Shown here piece after piece: positions 9,385-29,345 of a stretch of 64,000 nucleotides of DNA. The notes below the pieces were generated by a model, which saw only the letters and a program-made list of their open reading frames with translations, did not search any database and was not told where the DNA came from. The position numbers and the translations under genes are program-made. How positions within the stretch are numbered: position 1 is the stretch's first letter; every line of letters starts with the position of its first letter. The stretch comes from Armatimonadota bacterium (GTDB lineage Bacteria; Armatimonadota; Chthonomonadetes; Chthonomonadales; Chthonomonadaceae), in NCBI GenBank assembly GCA_028871815.1, contig JAGWMJ010000002.1:124001-188000 (forward strand), in the 5' to 3' direction.

Positions 9385-12300
9385 CGCGCTTGCCCAGCGG
9401 ACTTCGGTGACATCACCAGCAGCATCCCGCGGAGCGGTGCAACGGGTATCGCTGCGTCCGGCGCGAATGTTGCTGCCGGCTGAAAGTGCTCTATCGCCGG
9501 CGCCGTGAGCGTGACGTCGCTGCTGCGGAATCCCAGTTGCCGCCAATCTATCTTCAAGTGGACCTCCACGTTGGTCTTTGCCCAGCTCCCTATCGCAATC
9601 ATCACGGAGCGCTTCCTGCGGTAAACGGTGGCCAGGACGTTGGGCGTGTCCGTTCGGACGGGACACTGCGGCTGCCAGTAGCCGATCATCCGCGCTCCGG
9701 CAATGCCGAACTTGTCCCACTCCTTCCAGATCGGTCGCGGATCAGCGTGGTTCGAGCCGCTTACCCACGGCAAGCGCAGCGTCATACCGTACACCATGCC
9801 GAGCCAGCGGTTACCGCCGCCCTGGAGCATGTCGCCCATCAGGCCAAACGGAATGCCGGAGCACTGCACCAGCCACTGATCGGGCGACATATGGTTGTAA
9901 TCGAAGCCCTCGCCGAACCAGGTCCGGTCTATGTACGGAAAATACTCCGTGTACTGGTTAGCCGGACCGATGGAGAAGAGCGTGTCGGAGTGCAGATCGA
10001 TGAGGCTGCCGGGGCGCGCGGCGTCCAGCGCTCGCCGCAGCCTCTGGATGATCGAGCGGTTGTAGGCAACATCGTCGAGGTACAGACCGTCGATGTGTGT
10101 GCTGCGAGCCATCCAGGCGGCGCCGGCTACGTAGTAGTTGTACCAGCGCGACTCTCCGCTTACCTGAACCGCAGCGTCGATCTGGCCATCCGGTAGCGGT
10201 GTATACCATGCCGGCTGATAGTGTGTGCGAAGATGCTCGCGGAGCCATGTGTAGCCGCCGCCTCCACCATCGTAGAGTATCTCGCTGCCAAGGCTTCTGA
10301 GCAGCGGCATCTCCAGCGCATGGTTGCTCAGTTCCCGGACCGTGTCGTAGATCTTCACCTTCATCCCGGCAGCGTGCCACCGGTGGGCAAACGTGCGAAT
10401 GCGCCCGGTGGCGCCCATCGGGTAGTTGATATACGGATTCACCAGGTTGCCCTGATGCACGTTGATAATGTTGACTCCGGCAGCGACGGCTGCCGGATCG
10501 GGCGCCGGACTGCCCCCGCTGTGGAAATATCGCTCTGTAAAGTGTTGACGCGTGTTCAGCGGCTTAACCGGCGTGGGCAATATGGCAAACTTCAAGGTCA
10601 CCGGCGCTCCGGGCTTGAGAATGCGACGACCGGTGAAGGCATCCACCAGCGCTTCGCGTGGGTTTGGTTCACCAATACTACAGCCACCAGCGCCGCCATT
10701 GAACCACGCGGGCGGCGGCGCGGGATGGTACAGGTTGAGCAGCGGGCCGGAGTAGCTCGCGCCAAGAAAGCGGAAGTGGAATCCGGCTCGGGCTGAACCG
10801 ATCCAGAAGCTGCTGTAGGGACCGGTCCACTGCCATAACCAGTGGCTTGGCCGGAATCCACCAGCCAGCCCGATTCCCATGAAGTACCGCGCCTCAGCGC
10901 GCCTTACCGGCATCAACAGTTGAACGTCTTTCAGGGGCGCTGCCTGGCGCGCCAGAAGCGTCACGGCGAAGTGGGAGTAGCCGTCGAACTCCTCCCAACC
11001 CCGGCACAGGATGACGACGTTACCGCGTACGGCGCGGCTCTGCCACTCGACACGGGCGGGCGTAACACGCGTAAACCGGAGCGCGCCAGACTGCGAGGCG
11101 CCTCCCAGGCCCGAGAGGTTCAACTGCAAGGGACCGGCAAGGACGGGGTGGCCGAATGCGCGAATCTGGGCCGGTATGCCGTCGGGGCCCAGCGTCATCG
11201 AACGACCTAAGCACTCAATCGTGTTGCCTCTCAATCGCAGCGGTACGTACGGCGGAGTGATCACTTCCCGCTCACCCACGCGGGAGTTCAACCAGCGAGC
11301 GCGCGAGAAGGCAGCTGACGAGTGCTCACCATCACCGCGATCGGCAAGCGTGCGCCGGGTTATGCCGAAAACAACGTGGATAGTCTGCGCCGGCGCGTTC
11401 GACGGCTTGATGGTCACCGTGCCGGAATAGTCGCCGGGCCTACAACGGCTGGGTACCGACACGCCAAACCAGAGCGGCTGTATGTGCCCTGCCGGCACAT
11501 CTACGCGCTTGGTGAACCGGCTGCCGTTCGGGCCAACACCGCCGAGATTGAAACAGGTGATGTCTGCAGCCGGAATCGCGCGGCCGGAGGGTCCGCGCAT
11601 CGCACTGCAGACCGCTCGGATGTTGGAGAGAGCACCACGACTTGCCCAAACGCCAAGCTGGTAGGTGGCATACTGGTTTTGCGCGAGGCCGCGCAGATTC
11701 AGCGTTTCGTTCGGCCGCTTCCCGATCCATCGCAGCGGCACGTTGTTGCGCATCCAGATCGGATGTGCCGCGTCTTCACCAAAGAGAAAGTAACTTTCCG
11801 GATTGCGGGCAATGAACGCCGCCGTCTCCTGCGGTGTGGCGCATACCTCCATCGGCGCGTCGTTGTCGAATGCCGAGCGCGACTCAAACCGCACCACCGT
11901 CGCGGCCGGCAGATCCCGCCACATGCCGGTCGTTAATCCGTGTGCATCCAGGCCGGATTTCACCAGCCACGAGGCGTCCGCGCGATTCGTGGGTTGCGTG
12001 TACCCACCGCTATATCCGCCATAGTTCAGCCATACGTTATGCTGCAGGTAGTAGATAGCATAGTCGCCGGGACCCGCAGTCGGCTGAAATACCACTTCCG
12101 CCTCAAATCGGTCACCCTGGATCCGGACTTCATTCTGAATGGGTTGGCCGCCACCCAGGGGCGTCACCAGAACGGCTTTGGCCGCAGTATCGTGGTCGCG
12201 TCTCCGCCACATGAGGCGGACGCGAACCGCGGCTGCCGTATTGCTGACGTGGACAATGGCGCGCTGGGATCCCAGTTTGGCCGGCCAAGGTGAAGCGGTG

Positions 12301-23466: not shown

Positions 23467-24441
23467 CTACGGCAGCAGCCGGTCCTTCGGGTCCATGGCG
23501 TTTACTTCCTGCGTGGTGCGCAAAACGCCCCAGCTGCGCAGCAGGTCGAGGATCTCCTGCAGACCGTCGGTGCCGACGTCCGACGCGATCTCCGTCTTCC
23601 TCCACACGCCGAACCGCTGACGCGCGCCCGCCCACTGCAGTTCGTGCTCGCGCAGCGCACGGATACCAAGCCATCCTGTCTCGGTGCGGCTCTCGATCAC
23701 CGAGATCACGCGCGCAACCGTTTGCGGAAATTGGTCGATTACAAAATGGTCGTCGTCCTCAGGGAACAGCACGCGGTCGAGATTCAGTTTCCGAAAGTCG
23801 GTCAGCCAAAACCGGGACTTACGAAGATCGACGTTGATCATCTCGTTTGGAGGAAACTCGCCGGGTGGCCAGGCATCGCGCGCGAAGATCACTTCGCGCA
23901 GTTCACCTTCAAAGACGCAATCGATAAAATTGCTGCCCCAAAACTCGACCTTCCTGAGTCGGGTGTTTCTGAAGATGCAGTTGGTAAATGTAGATTTGTG
24001 CGAAAACGCCCGGCGCAGGTCAGCCTGGGTGAAGTCGACATTCACGTACGTGTCGCAGTAGCCGTCCTCCATGGTGCCGAGCGCAGCGCCCCGCATATCG
24101 GCCCCGCGGAAGCTGACGTTCTCGAGGCGCGTGGCCCAGATACGCAGGTCGGCGAGCACACAGTCATCGAATACACAATCCTCGATAATCCCATAGAGGA
24201 AACGCAGGCTTGGCAGGGTGGCCCCGGCGAAGTCAATACTGGTCCAGTGGAATCGCTCGAGTTCCGTGTACCACGTCAGCTCTCCCGCATCAAGCCCTTC
24301 GATCTTCGTGACGTTGACGAGGGAGGGCTCGGCCAGCTTGAGGCCGCGCATATCGAGCCGGCCATTGACGAGTTCCTCCTTCAGTCCGCTGAGGTCCCCA
24401 CCCTTTTTCATCCGCTCCCAGATTGTGAGTTTGCTGTCCAT
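23467..24441 (-). CDS. Pentapeptide-repeat protein A, candidate immunity protein
   Basis: A 324-residue soluble protein. The middle (about 65-215) is a pentapeptide-repeat right-handed beta-helix with A(D/N)LxF-type steps: SIDFAGATLPSLRF, CVFDDCVLADLRIW, NVSFRGADMRGAAL, NVDFTQADLRRAF, NCIFRNTRLRKVEF. The C-terminal 110 residues are helical and end in EVNAMDPKDRLLP. It is a close paralogue of the protein encoded at 27748-28722, especially in the last 150 residues. The position at the 3' side of an Rhs toxin fragment with other immunity-type genes suggests an antitoxin/immunity role. This is inference; pentapeptide proteins have other uses, e.g. DNA mimicry. An inverted repeat lies directly upstream. 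Confidence 0.82.
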   Translation of the reverse strand: MDSKLTIWERMKKGGDLSGLKEELVNGRLDMRGLKLAEPSLVNVTKIEGLDAGELTWYTELERFHWTSIDFAGATLPSLRFLYGIIEDCVFDDCVLADLRIWATRLENVSFRGADMRGAALGTMEDGYCDTYVNVDFTQADLRRAFSHKSTFTNCIFRNTRLRKVEFWGSNFIDCVFEGELREVIFARDAWPPGEFPPNEMINVDLRKSRFWLTDFRKLNLDRVLFPEDDDHFVIDQFPQTVARVISVIESRTETGWLGIRALREHELQWAGARQRFGVWRKTEIASDVGTDGLQEILDLLRSWGVLRTTQEVNAMDPKDRLLP

Positions 24442-24565: not shown

Positions 24566-25222
24566 TCAGACGGCATGGGAGAACGAGTAATCTTCCGGTG
24601 CGAGAACCACAACTCCGGTCAAGCCGGCCTCGGCCATGCCCTCCACGAATCGGCGGCTTACCAGAGTGGTGGATGCTAGGCCGCGCGCAGCGAAAATGTC
24701 CGCGCCATTCCACGAACCCGCCTGAAGCACGACCCTGTCGATCGCCTTGGTGCGCCGGCGACCGTAGGCGCACGGCACCGCCGGTCGAACGGCGCCGGAT
24801 GCCTCATCGTCGAGGTTGGCGCCCAATCTAGTTTTCCACACGTTGCCGTACTCGGGCAGCTCAACTTGCAGACTCTCGGGCTTCTTTCGACGCACACTTG
24901 CGATATGCGCTGGCGGATCCCGGTGCACGATGCCGGTCCACCCTCCTTTGTCGTAGAGTTCCAGCGCGGGCCGCGAGAGCATAAGATCGAAGCCGTGGCC
25001 GAGCAGAAAGTCGGGGAATACGCGGCCACGCAGGCTGAGATTCTGAGGCGGCAGCCACCGCCGCAGGCCCATGCCGATTCCGCACACGGGGCACCCCTCG
25101 TACAGGCCGCTGACCCCATAACTCTTCGGTTTCTCGGCCTCGCCCCAACCGTATTTGCTGCCGAACAGTAGTTTCCCCTAGTCGATTACGTAGAAGTCCG
25201 GCGTCGTGTTATTACGTACCAT
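24566..25222 (-). pseudogene. CXXCG-motif immunity-type gene broken by in-frame TAG
   Basis: Reading leftward, ATG 25222 has AAGGA upstream and encodes MVRNNTTPDFYVID, then TAG (25180-25178), then continues in the same frame as GKLLFGSKYGWGEAEKPKSY. After that come a zinc-type CPVCG motif, CRIG-like residues and a 170-residue domain ending in FVEGMAEAGLTGVVVLAPED. The end and the CXXCG element resemble the double-CXXCG/Imm11-like immunity proteins of polymorphic toxin systems (family assignment tentative). The second motif is degenerate (CAYG). The continuous frame across the stop argues for a recent nonsense mutation. A shorter product from GTG 25087 is possible but would lack the first cysteine region context. 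Confidence 0.68.
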
Positions 25223-25430
25223 TGCTACTTTTCCTTCACGGTGCTCCAGGGACCTTGTACCCCGGAAAGCGCCATTACACGTCAGGGCGGGAACATATCT
25301 CTCTGAGAAGGGCCCGGACTTCGTCCGGCGCTGCCGACTGGTGGTTGAATCGTACCAGATGTTTTCAGCGCGGACTCCGAGGCGCATGCAGGAGCGGCGC
25401 CACCTGCAACGCAGCCCGCGAACGCCACGC

Positions 25431-26591
25431 CTATAAAGCGCGGGCAAACGCCTTCAACAGGCCGTCGCCGTACTCCTCGTCCTTGATATGGATGGCTCCG
25501 GTTCCGGCCGACGGGTTCAGATCGAGGTAGAACTCCAGCCGGTCGTTGACGGATGCCTTCATGCGGATCCAGGGATCGGTTCGTTCGTCCAGCGCCTCCC
25601 GCGTGTTGAGCACGACCAGATCGAACTTCAGCGGCCGCTTTCGCGCCGCCGGCCCGACACTCACACCGGCCTCCAGCTCATTCGCGAGCGCGGAAAGGAG
25701 CGCGGAAGCATCGCCGTCGCCTTCGGCGAGCAGCCAGCCCGTGCCGGCTGCAAAGGGCGAAAGCTCAAGCCTCGGCTTGAAAGCCAGCTCCAGCCGGAAG
25801 CGAGCTGTTCGACTTATCGTGCTGTGTGTGCAGAGCCAGGTCTGCGCGTCAGCCGTGGCGGCGCCATCCGGTTGGATTGCGAAGAGTACGGGGCCATCCG
25901 GCACGGCATCCGCCTCGCTGTCGCCCAGCGAGCCGGGCGGGTGAGCCCGATCTATTTTGGCGATCGCCTTGCGGGCGACACGACGGATCTCGGAATCATG
26001 GTGGTGCAGAAGGGGCTCGATGAGCGGGCGCGCCTTCACAGACTTCAGCTTGCCAAGGGCCTCGACCGTGCAATACAGTACGCTCGGATCCGACAGGGAC
26101 TCGATCAGCATCGCCTCGGCACGCAGATCCTTCACCTTCCCGAGCCAAAGTACGATCATCGCGCGGCTGTACCCGTTGCTGCGATCGCCCGCAATGGCCA
26201 GCAGTTGTTCAAACGCCGACTGGTCAGCGACTAGTTCAATGGCGTTTCCAACTGACCACTTATAGCCGTCGTCATTGTTGGGCCACGTCAAGAACTCGCG
26301 AATGAGCGGCTGGATCACCGCGGTGCGTGCCCATGGGACGGAGAGTGCGCTGAGGATAGACCGCCTAATGTTGAGCTCCGGGAATAGCGGAAGCCATTTG
26401 AGCAGTATCGGTATTGCGGCGTCGTAGCGGATGCCGCTCGTTCGCAGCCCGGCCAACGTGGCATGGTTGATCCCTGCCGCGCGGAGTTCGGCAAATACGG
26501 GGGACATGGCTAGATCGTATTGCGCCCTGTTCTCCTGCAGTCTCCGTTCGATAAGCTCGCTGACGAGCGGCTCGATTTCGTTTTTCCGCAT
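25431..26591 (-). CDS. HEAT-repeat protein, candidate immunity to the adjacent Rhs nuclease
   Basis: A 386-residue soluble protein. Residues about 55-215 are HEAT-type helical pairs (AIPILLKWLPLFPELNIRRS, LSDPSVLYCTVEALGKLKSV, ARPLIEPLLHHHDSEIRRVA). The C-terminal 150 residues are a separate beta-rich domain (WLCTHSTISRTARFRLEL ... KFDLVVLNTREALDER) ending GDGLLKAFARAL. Start ATG 26591 with GGAG at 7 nt. It lies 51 bp downstream of the Tox-REase-7 domain in the same direction, exactly where immunity genes sit, and HEAT-type immunity proteins are known for polymorphic toxins. A relic of its last 13 codons occurs at 27613-27651, showing that the module was once duplicated. The immunity role is inferred from position. 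Confidence 0.82.
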   Translation of the reverse strand: MRKNEIEPLVSELIERRLQENRAQYDLAMSPVFAELRAAGINHATLAGLRTSGIRYDAAIPILLKWLPLFPELNIRRSILSALSVPWARTAVIQPLIREFLTWPNNDDGYKWSVGNAIELVADQSAFEQLLAIAGDRSNGYSRAMIVLWLGKVKDLRAEAMLIESLSDPSVLYCTVEALGKLKSVKARPLIEPLLHHHDSEIRRVARKAIAKIDRAHPPGSLGDSEADAVPDGPVLFAIQPDGAATADAQTWLCTHSTISRTARFRLELAFKPRLELSPFAAGTGWLLAEGDGDASALLSALANELEAGVSVGPAARKRPLKFDLVVLNTREALDERTDPWIRMKASVNDRLEFYLDLNPSAGTGAIHIKDEEYGDGLLKAFARAL

Positions 26592-26642: not shown

Positions 26643-27536
26643 TCAGGGAATGACGCGGCGCACCACGATCTTCCCGGCACGCTCCATAGCTTGAAGAGCG
26701 GGCGACAGAACCGTGCCCTTGCCGCCGCGAATGTACAGGCGGAGAGTGTAGTTGTTGTCCACCGCCCAGGCATAGTAGTCTTGCAGTTGTCTCGTGTAGC
26801 TCAGGCTCTTGACATTCTTGACCTCTCCGATCACCTTCGCGACATGGTCCAGTTCATCCGGGATACGGTGGCTCGCCCAACTGGGCAGTGTGATCCACTC
26901 GGTGTTTTTCACGATACCCGCTGCGGCCTCGCCAACTTGGCCCAGCCAGCGCACACGCGCCATGCCGGTGAGGCCGGCCCCGGCCAGCCGCTCGGCCCGT
27001 GCCGCCCGGGCTGCATTGATCGCTGCACCGGCGGCTTCAAACGCCTTGTCTTGCAGACCCCAGAGCGCGGCTTACCGGCCGATTGTGGCGAGAACCACGG
27101 AACCGCCGTAGCCTGATTGATGCGCGTAGTGCCGGTTTGTATAGTGGCCGCAGCTTAGCGCGTGGGCGGTAGCGGCAAGCCCTGTCTTGATGCCCTCCAA
27201 AATAACGTGTGGGGTGAATTCGAAACCCCAGATCGTCCACCCCGGCCCGAGACCCAGCGGGTCAAACGCGTTGACCGGGTCATCGCCGCAGTACTCGTAG
27301 AGGTTTATGCCGCCGTCCCACAGCGTGGGATCGCGTGTCAGCCAGATGCCGTTTGCGGGGTCGTAGTAGCGGAGGCCGCAGAGGATGAGCGCGGGGAAGG
27401 GCGACTGAAGAATCGGGCCGTACCGGGTGGGTCCGGTCTGGGCCGTCACCAGCCAGTCGGTGTAACACCCAAACTGGCCGTCAAAGGCAACAGGATCGGG
27501 GCGGCGAAATGGCGCGGCTGCAGCACCGCCGCAACG
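26643..27536 (-). pseudogene. Rhs-core fragment with Tox-REase-7-type C-terminal nuclease, split by TAA
   Basis: A leftward frame open from 27536 opens inside an Rhs core: PVAFDGQFGCYTDW, LILCGLRYYDPANGIWLTRD and GGINLYEYCGDDPVNAFDPL are diagnostic of the Rhs-repeat-associated core end. After a linker (FTPHVILEGIKTGLAATAH) a TAA (27074-27072) interrupts the frame. The same frame then continues ALWGLQDKAFEAAGAAINAA into GIVKNTEWITLPSW, RIPDELD and IGEVKNVKSLSYTRQLQDYY. This is a Tox-REase-7-type nuclease with the PD...ExK catalytic pattern intact. The N-terminal thousand or more residues of a normal Rhs protein are absent. So it is an orphan, nonsense-mutated toxin tip; the 106-residue domain from ATG 26963 could still be made alone. 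Confidence 0.85.
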
Positions 27537-27612
27537 TCATGCGGGCCGAAGCGGGCAGGTCGCGGGGATGGGCGCCAATATCAGCGCGGCGGGGCCGGCG
27601 CAATGCGTATGC

Positions 27613-27651
27613 TTACAACGCGCGGGCAAACGCCTTCAACAGGCCGTCGCC
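27613..27651 (-). pseudogene. 13-codon relic of a second HEAT immunity gene
   Basis: Minus-strand codons for GDGLLKAFARAL followed by TAA match the last 12 codons plus stop of the HEAT gene (25431-25469) at 36 of 39 bases. The differences are silent or in the stop codon (TAG versus TAA). Nothing upstream of this patch resembles the HEAT gene. It marks the end of a lost, once-coding paralogue and a recombination joint with the Rhs fragment. Confidence 0.75.
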
Positions 27652-27691
27652 GCCCGGATTCCGATGCGGATGCGGGAACTCTGCCACGACC

Positions 27692-27727
27692 GCGCGGCCG
27701 GCAAGCCCCGCGCGAGCGCGCCAGCCT
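27692..27727. repeat. 36-bp direct repeat, copy 1 (flanks pentapeptide gene B)
   Basis: GCGCGGCCGGCAAGCCCCGC followed by GCGAGCGCGCCAGCCT; identical to 28750-28785 at 35 of 36 positions. It lies 20 bp beyond the stop of pentapeptide gene B. Both copies are open on the minus strand in a frame giving GWRARAGLAGRAV. Confidence 0.8.
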
Positions 27728-27747
27728 TCGCGCGCGCCCATGCCCAC

Positions 27748-28722
27748 CTACGGCAGCAGCCGGTCCTTCGGGTCCATGGCGTTCACCTCTTGCGCGGAGC
27801 GCGGCACGCCCCAGGCTTGGACCCACCCGAGAAATTCGCTCAGGCCGTCCTCACCCACTTCTGCAACGATGTCCTGTTTGCTCCACACACCGAAGCGCTG
27901 TCGCGGCCCGACGCATTTTTGATCCCATTCCAGCAGACCGGCAACCCCCAGCCATCCGGATTCCGTGCGGGCGGCAAGCTGCTCGAGCAGACGATCCACC
28001 GTCTCTGGATATTGGTCGAGGATGATGTGCTCATCGTCCTCGGGAAAGAGCACGCGGTCAAGATTCAGCTTACGGAAGCCGCACATCCTCAACTTAGCCT
28101 TGCGAAGATCGACGTTGATCATCTCGTTTGGTGGGTTCTGGCCGCGGGGCAAGCCGTCGCGGCTGAATATCACCTCGCGCAGCTCTCCTTCAAATACGCA
28201 ATCGGTGAAGTTGCTGCCCCAGAACTCCACCTTTGTCAACCGGGTGTTTCTGAACAGGCAGTTGACAAACACCGTGGAATTGTAGCTGGTGTCTCGGAGG
28301 TCGGCGCCGGTGAAATCCACGTTCCGGTAATATGTACTTCCCTCCGGGCGGGCCGGACCAAGACTCCCGGAAACGACCGCGGATAGAAACCGGCAATCCG
28401 TGCACTGTAACGTCCACACGCGAATGTCGTGGATGTCACACCGGTCAAAAATGCAGTCGGTCAGGGAGCTGTCGAAGAACCTCAGTCTAGGCAGCGTAGC
28501 GCCCGTGAAGTCGAGCCCCCGCCAGGAACCGTTTCGAATGATCGTCGGGCCGCTGAGGACCCGCGCCTCTCCGATTGGTGTTTGGAGCGTTCGGGTTACA
28601 ATCGGCCCAGCCACACTGACCCCGCGCATGTCAATGCGGCCGTCAATCCGGGCGGGGTTGAGCCCATCCAGGCTTTCGCCGCTTACGAGCCTTTTTTTTT
28701 TCTCGCGCTGGATTTCGTTCAT
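27748..28722 (-). CDS. Pentapeptide-repeat protein B, paralogue of A, candidate immunity protein
   Basis: A 324-residue pentapeptide-repeat protein: GLDFTGATLPRLRF, CIFDRCDIHDIRVW, NVDFTGADLRDTSY, NCLFRNTRLTKVEF. The C-terminal region is almost the same as protein A (NEMINVDLRK, FRKLNLDRVLFPEDD, RQRFGVW, EVNAMDPKDRLLP). The N-termini differ more, so the shared part may hold a common function. ATG 28722 is used because it aligns with A; a TTG three codons earlier is the alternative. Codons 7-10 contain a run of ten A (REKKKR), a slippage-prone tract. The gene is bracketed by a 36-bp direct repeat. The immunity role is inferred from neighbours. Confidence 0.82.
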   Translation of the reverse strand: MNEIQREKKKRLVSGESLDGLNPARIDGRIDMRGVSVAGPIVTRTLQTPIGEARVLSGPTIIRNGSWRGLDFTGATLPRLRFFDSSLTDCIFDRCDIHDIRVWTLQCTDCRFLSAVVSGSLGPARPEGSTYYRNVDFTGADLRDTSYNSTVFVNCLFRNTRLTKVEFWGSNFTDCVFEGELREVIFSRDGLPRGQNPPNEMINVDLRKAKLRMCGFRKLNLDRVLFPEDDEHIILDQYPETVDRLLEQLAARTESGWLGVAGLLEWDQKCVGPRQRFGVWSKQDIVAEVGEDGLSEFLGWVQAWGVPRSAQEVNAMDPKDRLLP

Positions 28723-28749
28723 AGCAGGCAACTATCCACGGCGGACACA

Positions 28750-28785
28750 GCGCGGCCGGCAAGCCCCGCTCGAGCGCGCCAGCCT
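28750..28785. repeat. 36-bp direct repeat, copy 2 (flanks pentapeptide gene B)
   Basis: Second copy, 1058 bp from the first, 28 bp upstream of the pentapeptide B start codon. One mismatch (T for G at the twentieth base). With copy 1 it frames the gene as a discrete cassette. Confidence 0.8.
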
Positions 28786-29269
28786 GCCTTGCAAAAAAAC
28801 AGGCTCTTTTTCACGCTCGTCCTTGAGGGTTGACCGAATCTGCGCAAGCGTGGCAAGAACTGGAACGTAATGTAGGGGATACTTGGCAGTCGTTTGCGGG
28901 TGCTTGCGAACGTGGACGATGGAGTACTGCGAACGCTCATAGGCGTTGTGGCTGCGGTTGGGAACCGCACGGCCCCGCATGACTTGAGGCGAATCCCAAT
29001 GGTCGCCGTGATCGTGACCACGAGCGGCACAAAGTCACGACGCAGGTGCGTTGCGCATAAGCAGGCGCACCTCGCGATCCGCCTGGACCGGCTGAAAATG
29101 CGCCCGCCGACACAAATCCAAATCACCGGCGTATAGTGGGAACGTATTGGCGCAAACCACCAGATTGAAGCTCAGCTAATCGCTCGCCGGCCATGAATCT
29201 GCGGTCGTCGGGTTATCTGCGCCGCGGTCGCGGGAAGAATCGTCACCGACTGATCGGAAAGCGATCCGA
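28786..29269. other. 484-bp gap with possible decayed toxin tip
   Basis: No sure gene. On the minus strand a frame free of stops runs from 29034 to 28732. It contains GHDHGDHWDSPQV, then GRAVPNRSHNAYERSQYSIV and KYPLHYVPVLATLAQIRSTL. The composition is protein-like, but there is no good start and upstream the frame is closed by TGA. Its place directly before an immunity-type gene makes a degraded Rhs C-terminal tip plausible. I do not recognise the fold. Confidence 0.35.
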
Positions 29270-29313
29270 CCAAAAGACGCACCCTCCACTCTGAGCGTTA
29301 GTCCGAGTGGAGG
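29270..29313 (-). terminator. Hairpin terminator after the TPR gene
   Basis: CCTCCACTC (29283-29291) pairs perfectly with GAGTGGAGG (29305-29313), 13-nt loop. On the minus strand a TTTT run follows about 8 nt later. It is 32 bp past the TPR stop and separates that gene from the toxin island. Confidence 0.65.
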
Positions 29314-29345
29314 ATCCGGCCTGCGTCCCTGTCGTGCGGCGGCGC

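Follow-up and report, generated by a model that had tools for sequence, protein, structure and literature searches.

A 36-bp direct repeat around a pentapeptide-repeat gene as the probable spacer of a tandem immunity array shaped by recombination between paralogues

What does it mean that a nearly perfect 36-bp direct repeat encloses a single pentapeptide-repeat gene, gene B, in the genome of an Armatimonadota bacterium? The preliminary description of the window (the whole 64,000-nucleotide stretch of DNA analysed here) had taken the repeat to frame an immunity cassette that recombination could add or remove. We reproduced the coordinates of the two copies (Table 1), which are 35/36 identical, 95% identical over 39 nt when extended, and 1058 bp apart. 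Copy 1 lies 20 bp past the B stop codon, as had been described, and the distance between copy 2 and the ATG is 27 bp rather than 28 bp. Both copies are intergenic. Gene B, which encodes 324 residues from the ATG or 327 from an upstream TTG, is the only gene between them: there is no transposase inside, in agreement with the earlier account, and a Pfam search with the two long plus-strand frames overlapping B gave no match.

The 36-mer is rare. No match with up to three mismatches occurred in 100 dinucleotide-preserving shuffles of the window, and the 3.68-Mb genome contains only three copies, all beside the same pentapeptide gene family. The third copy, at C1:495873 with one mismatch, is located behind gene C, a paralogue 59% identical to B. 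A genome-wide search, which the preliminary description had proposed, thus returned one further close copy, also flanking a pentapeptide gene; neither a dispersed repeat nor conserved coding sequence, the two findings named as counting against a cassette, was encountered. A dispersed REP-like repeat is ruled out by the three copies confined to one gene family. No copy was found in 60 relatives, which include no congeneric genome, or in viral contigs. Another candidate is a terminator or REP-like hairpin standing behind these genes by coincidence, since a minus-strand stem (GGCTGGC with GCCGGCC) can form shortly past the B stop codon. However, the folding energy is no better than that of dinucleotide shuffles (z -0.24 and -0.99), there is no U tract, and the low copy number and restriction to one gene family also speak against it. 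A hairpin is therefore a poor candidate, to which we assign little probability.

The genome encodes exactly four full members of the B family, A to D. A further pentapeptide-repeat gene with a 608-aa frame, at C2:251681-253147, lies outside this family. Window genes A and B are separated by 3.3 kb of DNA that contains toxin debris. On contig C1, D directly precedes C in tandem, and D resembles window gene A; the same contig carries a 93% identical counterpart of window stretch 27470-27750. The spacer between D and C can be aligned to the surroundings of B in two ways. Followed through the end of gene D, window positions 27694-28264 (B and the downstream repeat) align with positions 10932-11498 of locus L004; followed through the start of gene C, window positions 28027-28766 (B and the upstream repeat) align with L004 10204-10946. 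The similarity between the B-flanking spacers and the D-C spacer exceeds that of 1000 mononucleotide shuffles, and the DNA after A shows none. Contig C14 has the right half of the spacer alone, with the same segment next to it on the downstream side.

Table 1. Features of the pentapeptide gene region (window coordinates).
Feature	Position	Strand	Remarks
Gene A, paralogue of B, D-like	23467..24441	-	Array homology stops 5 bp past the A stop codon
SitI6-like (double-CXXCG) immunity gene	24566..25220	-	Broken by in-frame stop 25178-25180; C1 copy open
HEAT-repeat protein, presumed immunity for Tox-REase-7	25431..26591	-	Pfam; HEAT/Tox-REase-7 pairing catalogued in PMC3482391
Tox-REase-7 nuclease toxin domain of the orphan RHS tip	26643..26963	-	PF15649, 3e-19; downstream of in-frame stop
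Orphan RHS tip, RHS core end	27072..27449	-	TIGR03696, 1.5e-13
Relic of HEAT immunity gene 3' end, GDGLLKAFARAL-stop	27611..27652	-	Repeat family D4, 93% identical to 25429-25470
Repeat copy 1	27692..27727	-	Spacer behind gene B (minus-strand reading), joined to the HEAT relic
Conserved 3' block of gene B, last 20 codons, QEVNAMDPKDRLLP-stop	27748..27807	-	Near-identical in the four paralogues
Gene B, pentapeptide-repeat protein, putative orphan immunity gene	27748..28722	-	Pfam pentapeptide-repeat matches above cut-off
Repeat copy 2	28750..28785	-	Spacer before gene B, putatively of a preceding unit now gone; alignable to the D-C spacer on C1
Upstream limit of the array, 560 bp between copy 2 and TPR gene	28786..29345	.	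No Pfam-positive frame

Because the D-C spacer matches the DNA on either side of B, the repeat is best regarded as the spacer of a tandem unit and not as an att site, an attC site or a transposon end. The spacer behind one unit is the spacer before the next, so repeats on both sides of B are the trace of a tandem array of 'gene + spacer' units. We therefore consider it likely that the 36-bp repeat is the spacer trailing each gene of a tandem pentapeptide immunity array that evolves by recombination between paralogues. Copy 1 would be the trailing spacer of B itself, and copy 2 the remaining trailing spacer of another unit that formerly preceded B. Since the sequence to the right of copy 2 (28786 onwards) is not a pentapeptide gene end, we can only infer the lost upstream unit. 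The 560 bp beyond copy 2 have no second copy anywhere in the genome; with unrelated DNA behind A and unique DNA beyond 28785, the window array is broken at both ends. The 95% identity between the two window copies is higher than that of the D-C spacer to either of them; a plain old duplication would therefore require later homogenisation, or the event was recent.

The spacer alignments also bear on the original idea of a discrete immunity cassette, in which recombination between the two 36-bp ends would add or remove B in one piece. The repeats do bracket exactly one gene, the third copy flanks a pentapeptide gene too, and homologous recombination between the copies would remove B together with one spacer. 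However, the ends around gene C are unequal, with a full copy behind and a diverged spacer before the gene, and the C1 homology continues through the repeat into the neighbouring DNA, which means that the repeat does not mark the edge of a cassette on C1. A length of 36 bp is short for homologous recombination. An integron cassette is ruled out: the 36-mer lacks an attC core (GTTRRRY/RYYYAAC), and no integrase in the genome scores above the TIGR02249 cut-off. This absence of an integron integrase, like that of a transposase between the copies, counts against any discrete cassette, which we consider unlikely. Neither a B-less nor any other allele turned up among the 60 non-congeneric relatives, in the viral contigs, or when genome contigs were searched with protein B or with an alignment of the four proteins. 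A regulatory sequence under selection before and behind these genes would explain why the copies have been held at 95% while the genes diverged, but the D-C spacer has lost half of the sequence and there is none behind gene A. This makes a regulatory function very improbable.

The similarity among the four genes changes abruptly from one block to the next. Between A and D, identity is 99% in codons 141-200 (dS 0.03) and 60% in codons 221-305 (dS 1.67); between B and C, it is 90% in codons 1-65 (dS 0.17) and 57% in codons 66-140 (dS 1.30). Over the last 20 codons, nucleotide identity is 87-97% in all pairs, compared to 50-62% just upstream, with dS values of 0.07-0.36 for every pair and often >1 elsewhere. 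dS was calculated by the NG86 method, and negative output values were taken as saturation. The codon segments were picked after viewing a sliding-window profile; a permutation test of whether third-base identity clusters among codons for the same residue is independent of these segments. Clustering was pronounced for A/D (p 0.0002) and B/C (p 0.0006). It was weaker in the other four pairs (p 0.03-0.31), being borderline for A/C (p 0.042) and C/D (p 0.030) and not significant for A/B and B/D. Whole-gene dN/dS ratios of 0.21-0.42, to be read with the caveat of saturated dS, are consistent with genes maintained as functional.

The mosaic structure and the shared gene ends point to homologous recombination between the paralogues. 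The array would change by ordinary homologous recombination, either by unequal crossing over or by gene conversion. The anchors would be the near-identical last ~60 bp of the genes plus the spacer, as well as conserved blocks within the genes, with codons about 66-140 and 221-305 varying between them.

Genes A and B stand among toxin and immunity genes. On the minus strand, copy 1 is followed by the HEAT relic, the RHS core end, the Tox-REase-7 domain, the HEAT gene, the SitI6-like gene and gene A. The RHS tip, Tox-REase-7, HEAT and SitI6-like genes occur beside A and B and again on C1 and C14. An in-frame stop in the RHS tip (27072-27074), absent from the copy on C14, cuts off the Tox-REase-7 domain. 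The SitI6-like assignment is based on sub-threshold matches (0.005, weak, for the C1 copy, and 7.8e-09, under the curated bit cut-off, for the C14 relative). On C14, an RHS tip with a SitA6-like toxin and its SitI6-like gene is followed, in the immunity position, by an ankyrin-repeat gene (L016:9568-10383). The end of C14 (L016) and the start of C21 (L017) each break within a copy of the HEAT gene; the two contigs are thus probably one locus that was split by the assembler at a repeat.

A partial RHS core with a toxin domain stands beside an immunity gene in the window, as is characteristic of a dissociated Rhs tip. The whole genome contains 44 RHS core ends (TIGR03696); none of their frames exceeds 542 aa, and several are located near contig ends. 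There is no full-length rhs gene in the window array and no long one among the 44, so these core ends are either orphan debris or the main rhs gene is located at a contig break. Several relatives have 20-40 RHS core ends each. We regard the region as a decayed array of Rhs toxin and immunity genes.

Distant homologues of B are present in four of 300 other genomes searched. In three, the pentapeptide gene lies close behind an RHS tip: 20 bp behind the toxin tip in G013 (L082), behind a tip in G231 (L083), and, in G249 (L084), behind a tip that carries a WHH nuclease domain, plus a SUKH gene. The homologue in G243 follows a small gene that shows weak similarity to one located behind the G013 case. 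A second G013 homologue, on contig C312, has no toxin gene in view. The three cases support an immunity role for B, on the basis of gene position. By the same reasoning, we infer that both A and B are orphan immunity proteins that counter toxins delivered by Rhs. An orphan immunity gene located behind an Rhs locus can confer protection from incoming toxins (PMC10539506). PADLOC returned nothing for A and B. The third repeat copy also stands beside a pentapeptide gene, and the surroundings are of the toxin/immunity type; the view of B as a probable immunity gene shaped by recombination therefore holds. What has to be given up from the preliminary description is the role of the repeat, which is more plausibly an array spacer than a cassette border, with the signs of recombination found within the coding sequences and at the 3' ends of the genes.

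The predicted structure of B (pLDDT 72.6, medium confidence) is a pentapeptide-type solenoid with weak fold matches. MfpA, Qnr and HetL are the best of these, with low TM-scores on this medium-confidence model. Unlike these proteins, the B family has ~85 C-terminal residues with helices, which vary between the paralogues. A run of ten T residues at the start of gene B (window positions 28692-28701) aligns without gaps with a non-repetitive stretch of gene C, and an Ile-Trp pair conserved in A, C and D is Lys-Lys in B at this run, which is possibly a slippage site or a sequencing error.

The pentapeptide family is not listed as immunity in the literature searched; the recombination mechanism itself has been described for a different immunity family. 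The polyimmunity catalogue of Zhang et al. 2012 (PMC3482391) assigns HEAT repeats to Tox-REase-7 as its immunity, and the word 'pentapeptide' does not appear in the portion examined. There is an even chance that pentapeptide proteins with a variable C-terminal domain constitute an unlisted Rhs immunity family in the phylum, in which specificity is rebuilt by swapping the variable segments that lie between conserved blocks and gene ends. This leads to a testable prediction of which part of these proteins recognises the toxin.

The closest parallels are the arrays of esaG (and tipC) immunity genes of the type VII secretion system (T7SS) in Staphylococcus and Streptococcus (Garrett et al. 2022, PMC9484751). 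Recombination between paralogues alters the number of genes in esaG arrays, and in S. aureus a third homology block extends across the end of the gene into the spacer that follows it (PMC9484751). The array described here is similar in that it has tandem paralogues of one family (D and C are adjacent on C1) and conserved blocks alternating with variable ones, the last spanning the gene end and spacer. It differs in that the proteins are pentapeptide-repeat proteins and not EsaG, the toxins are Rhs tips and not T7SS toxins, and there are only two genes per locus. The unit number of the present array is known from one genome. Recombination-driven immunity arrays are documented for the T7SS immunity genes of Firmicutes; our reading would add an Rhs setting and the pentapeptide repeats, which are better known from gyrase protection. 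The region also resembles the dissociated Rhs C-terminal tips described by Jackson et al. 2009 (PMC2935791): leftover core fragments with toxin tips, some decayed by stop codons, are mixed with immunity genes. Unlike the tips of that study, those found here are scattered over many places in one genome, and a pentapeptide family takes the immunity position. Finally, the keeping of immunity genes without a toxin is shared with orphan Rhs immunity genes (PMC10539506) and with polyimmunity loci (PMC3482391).
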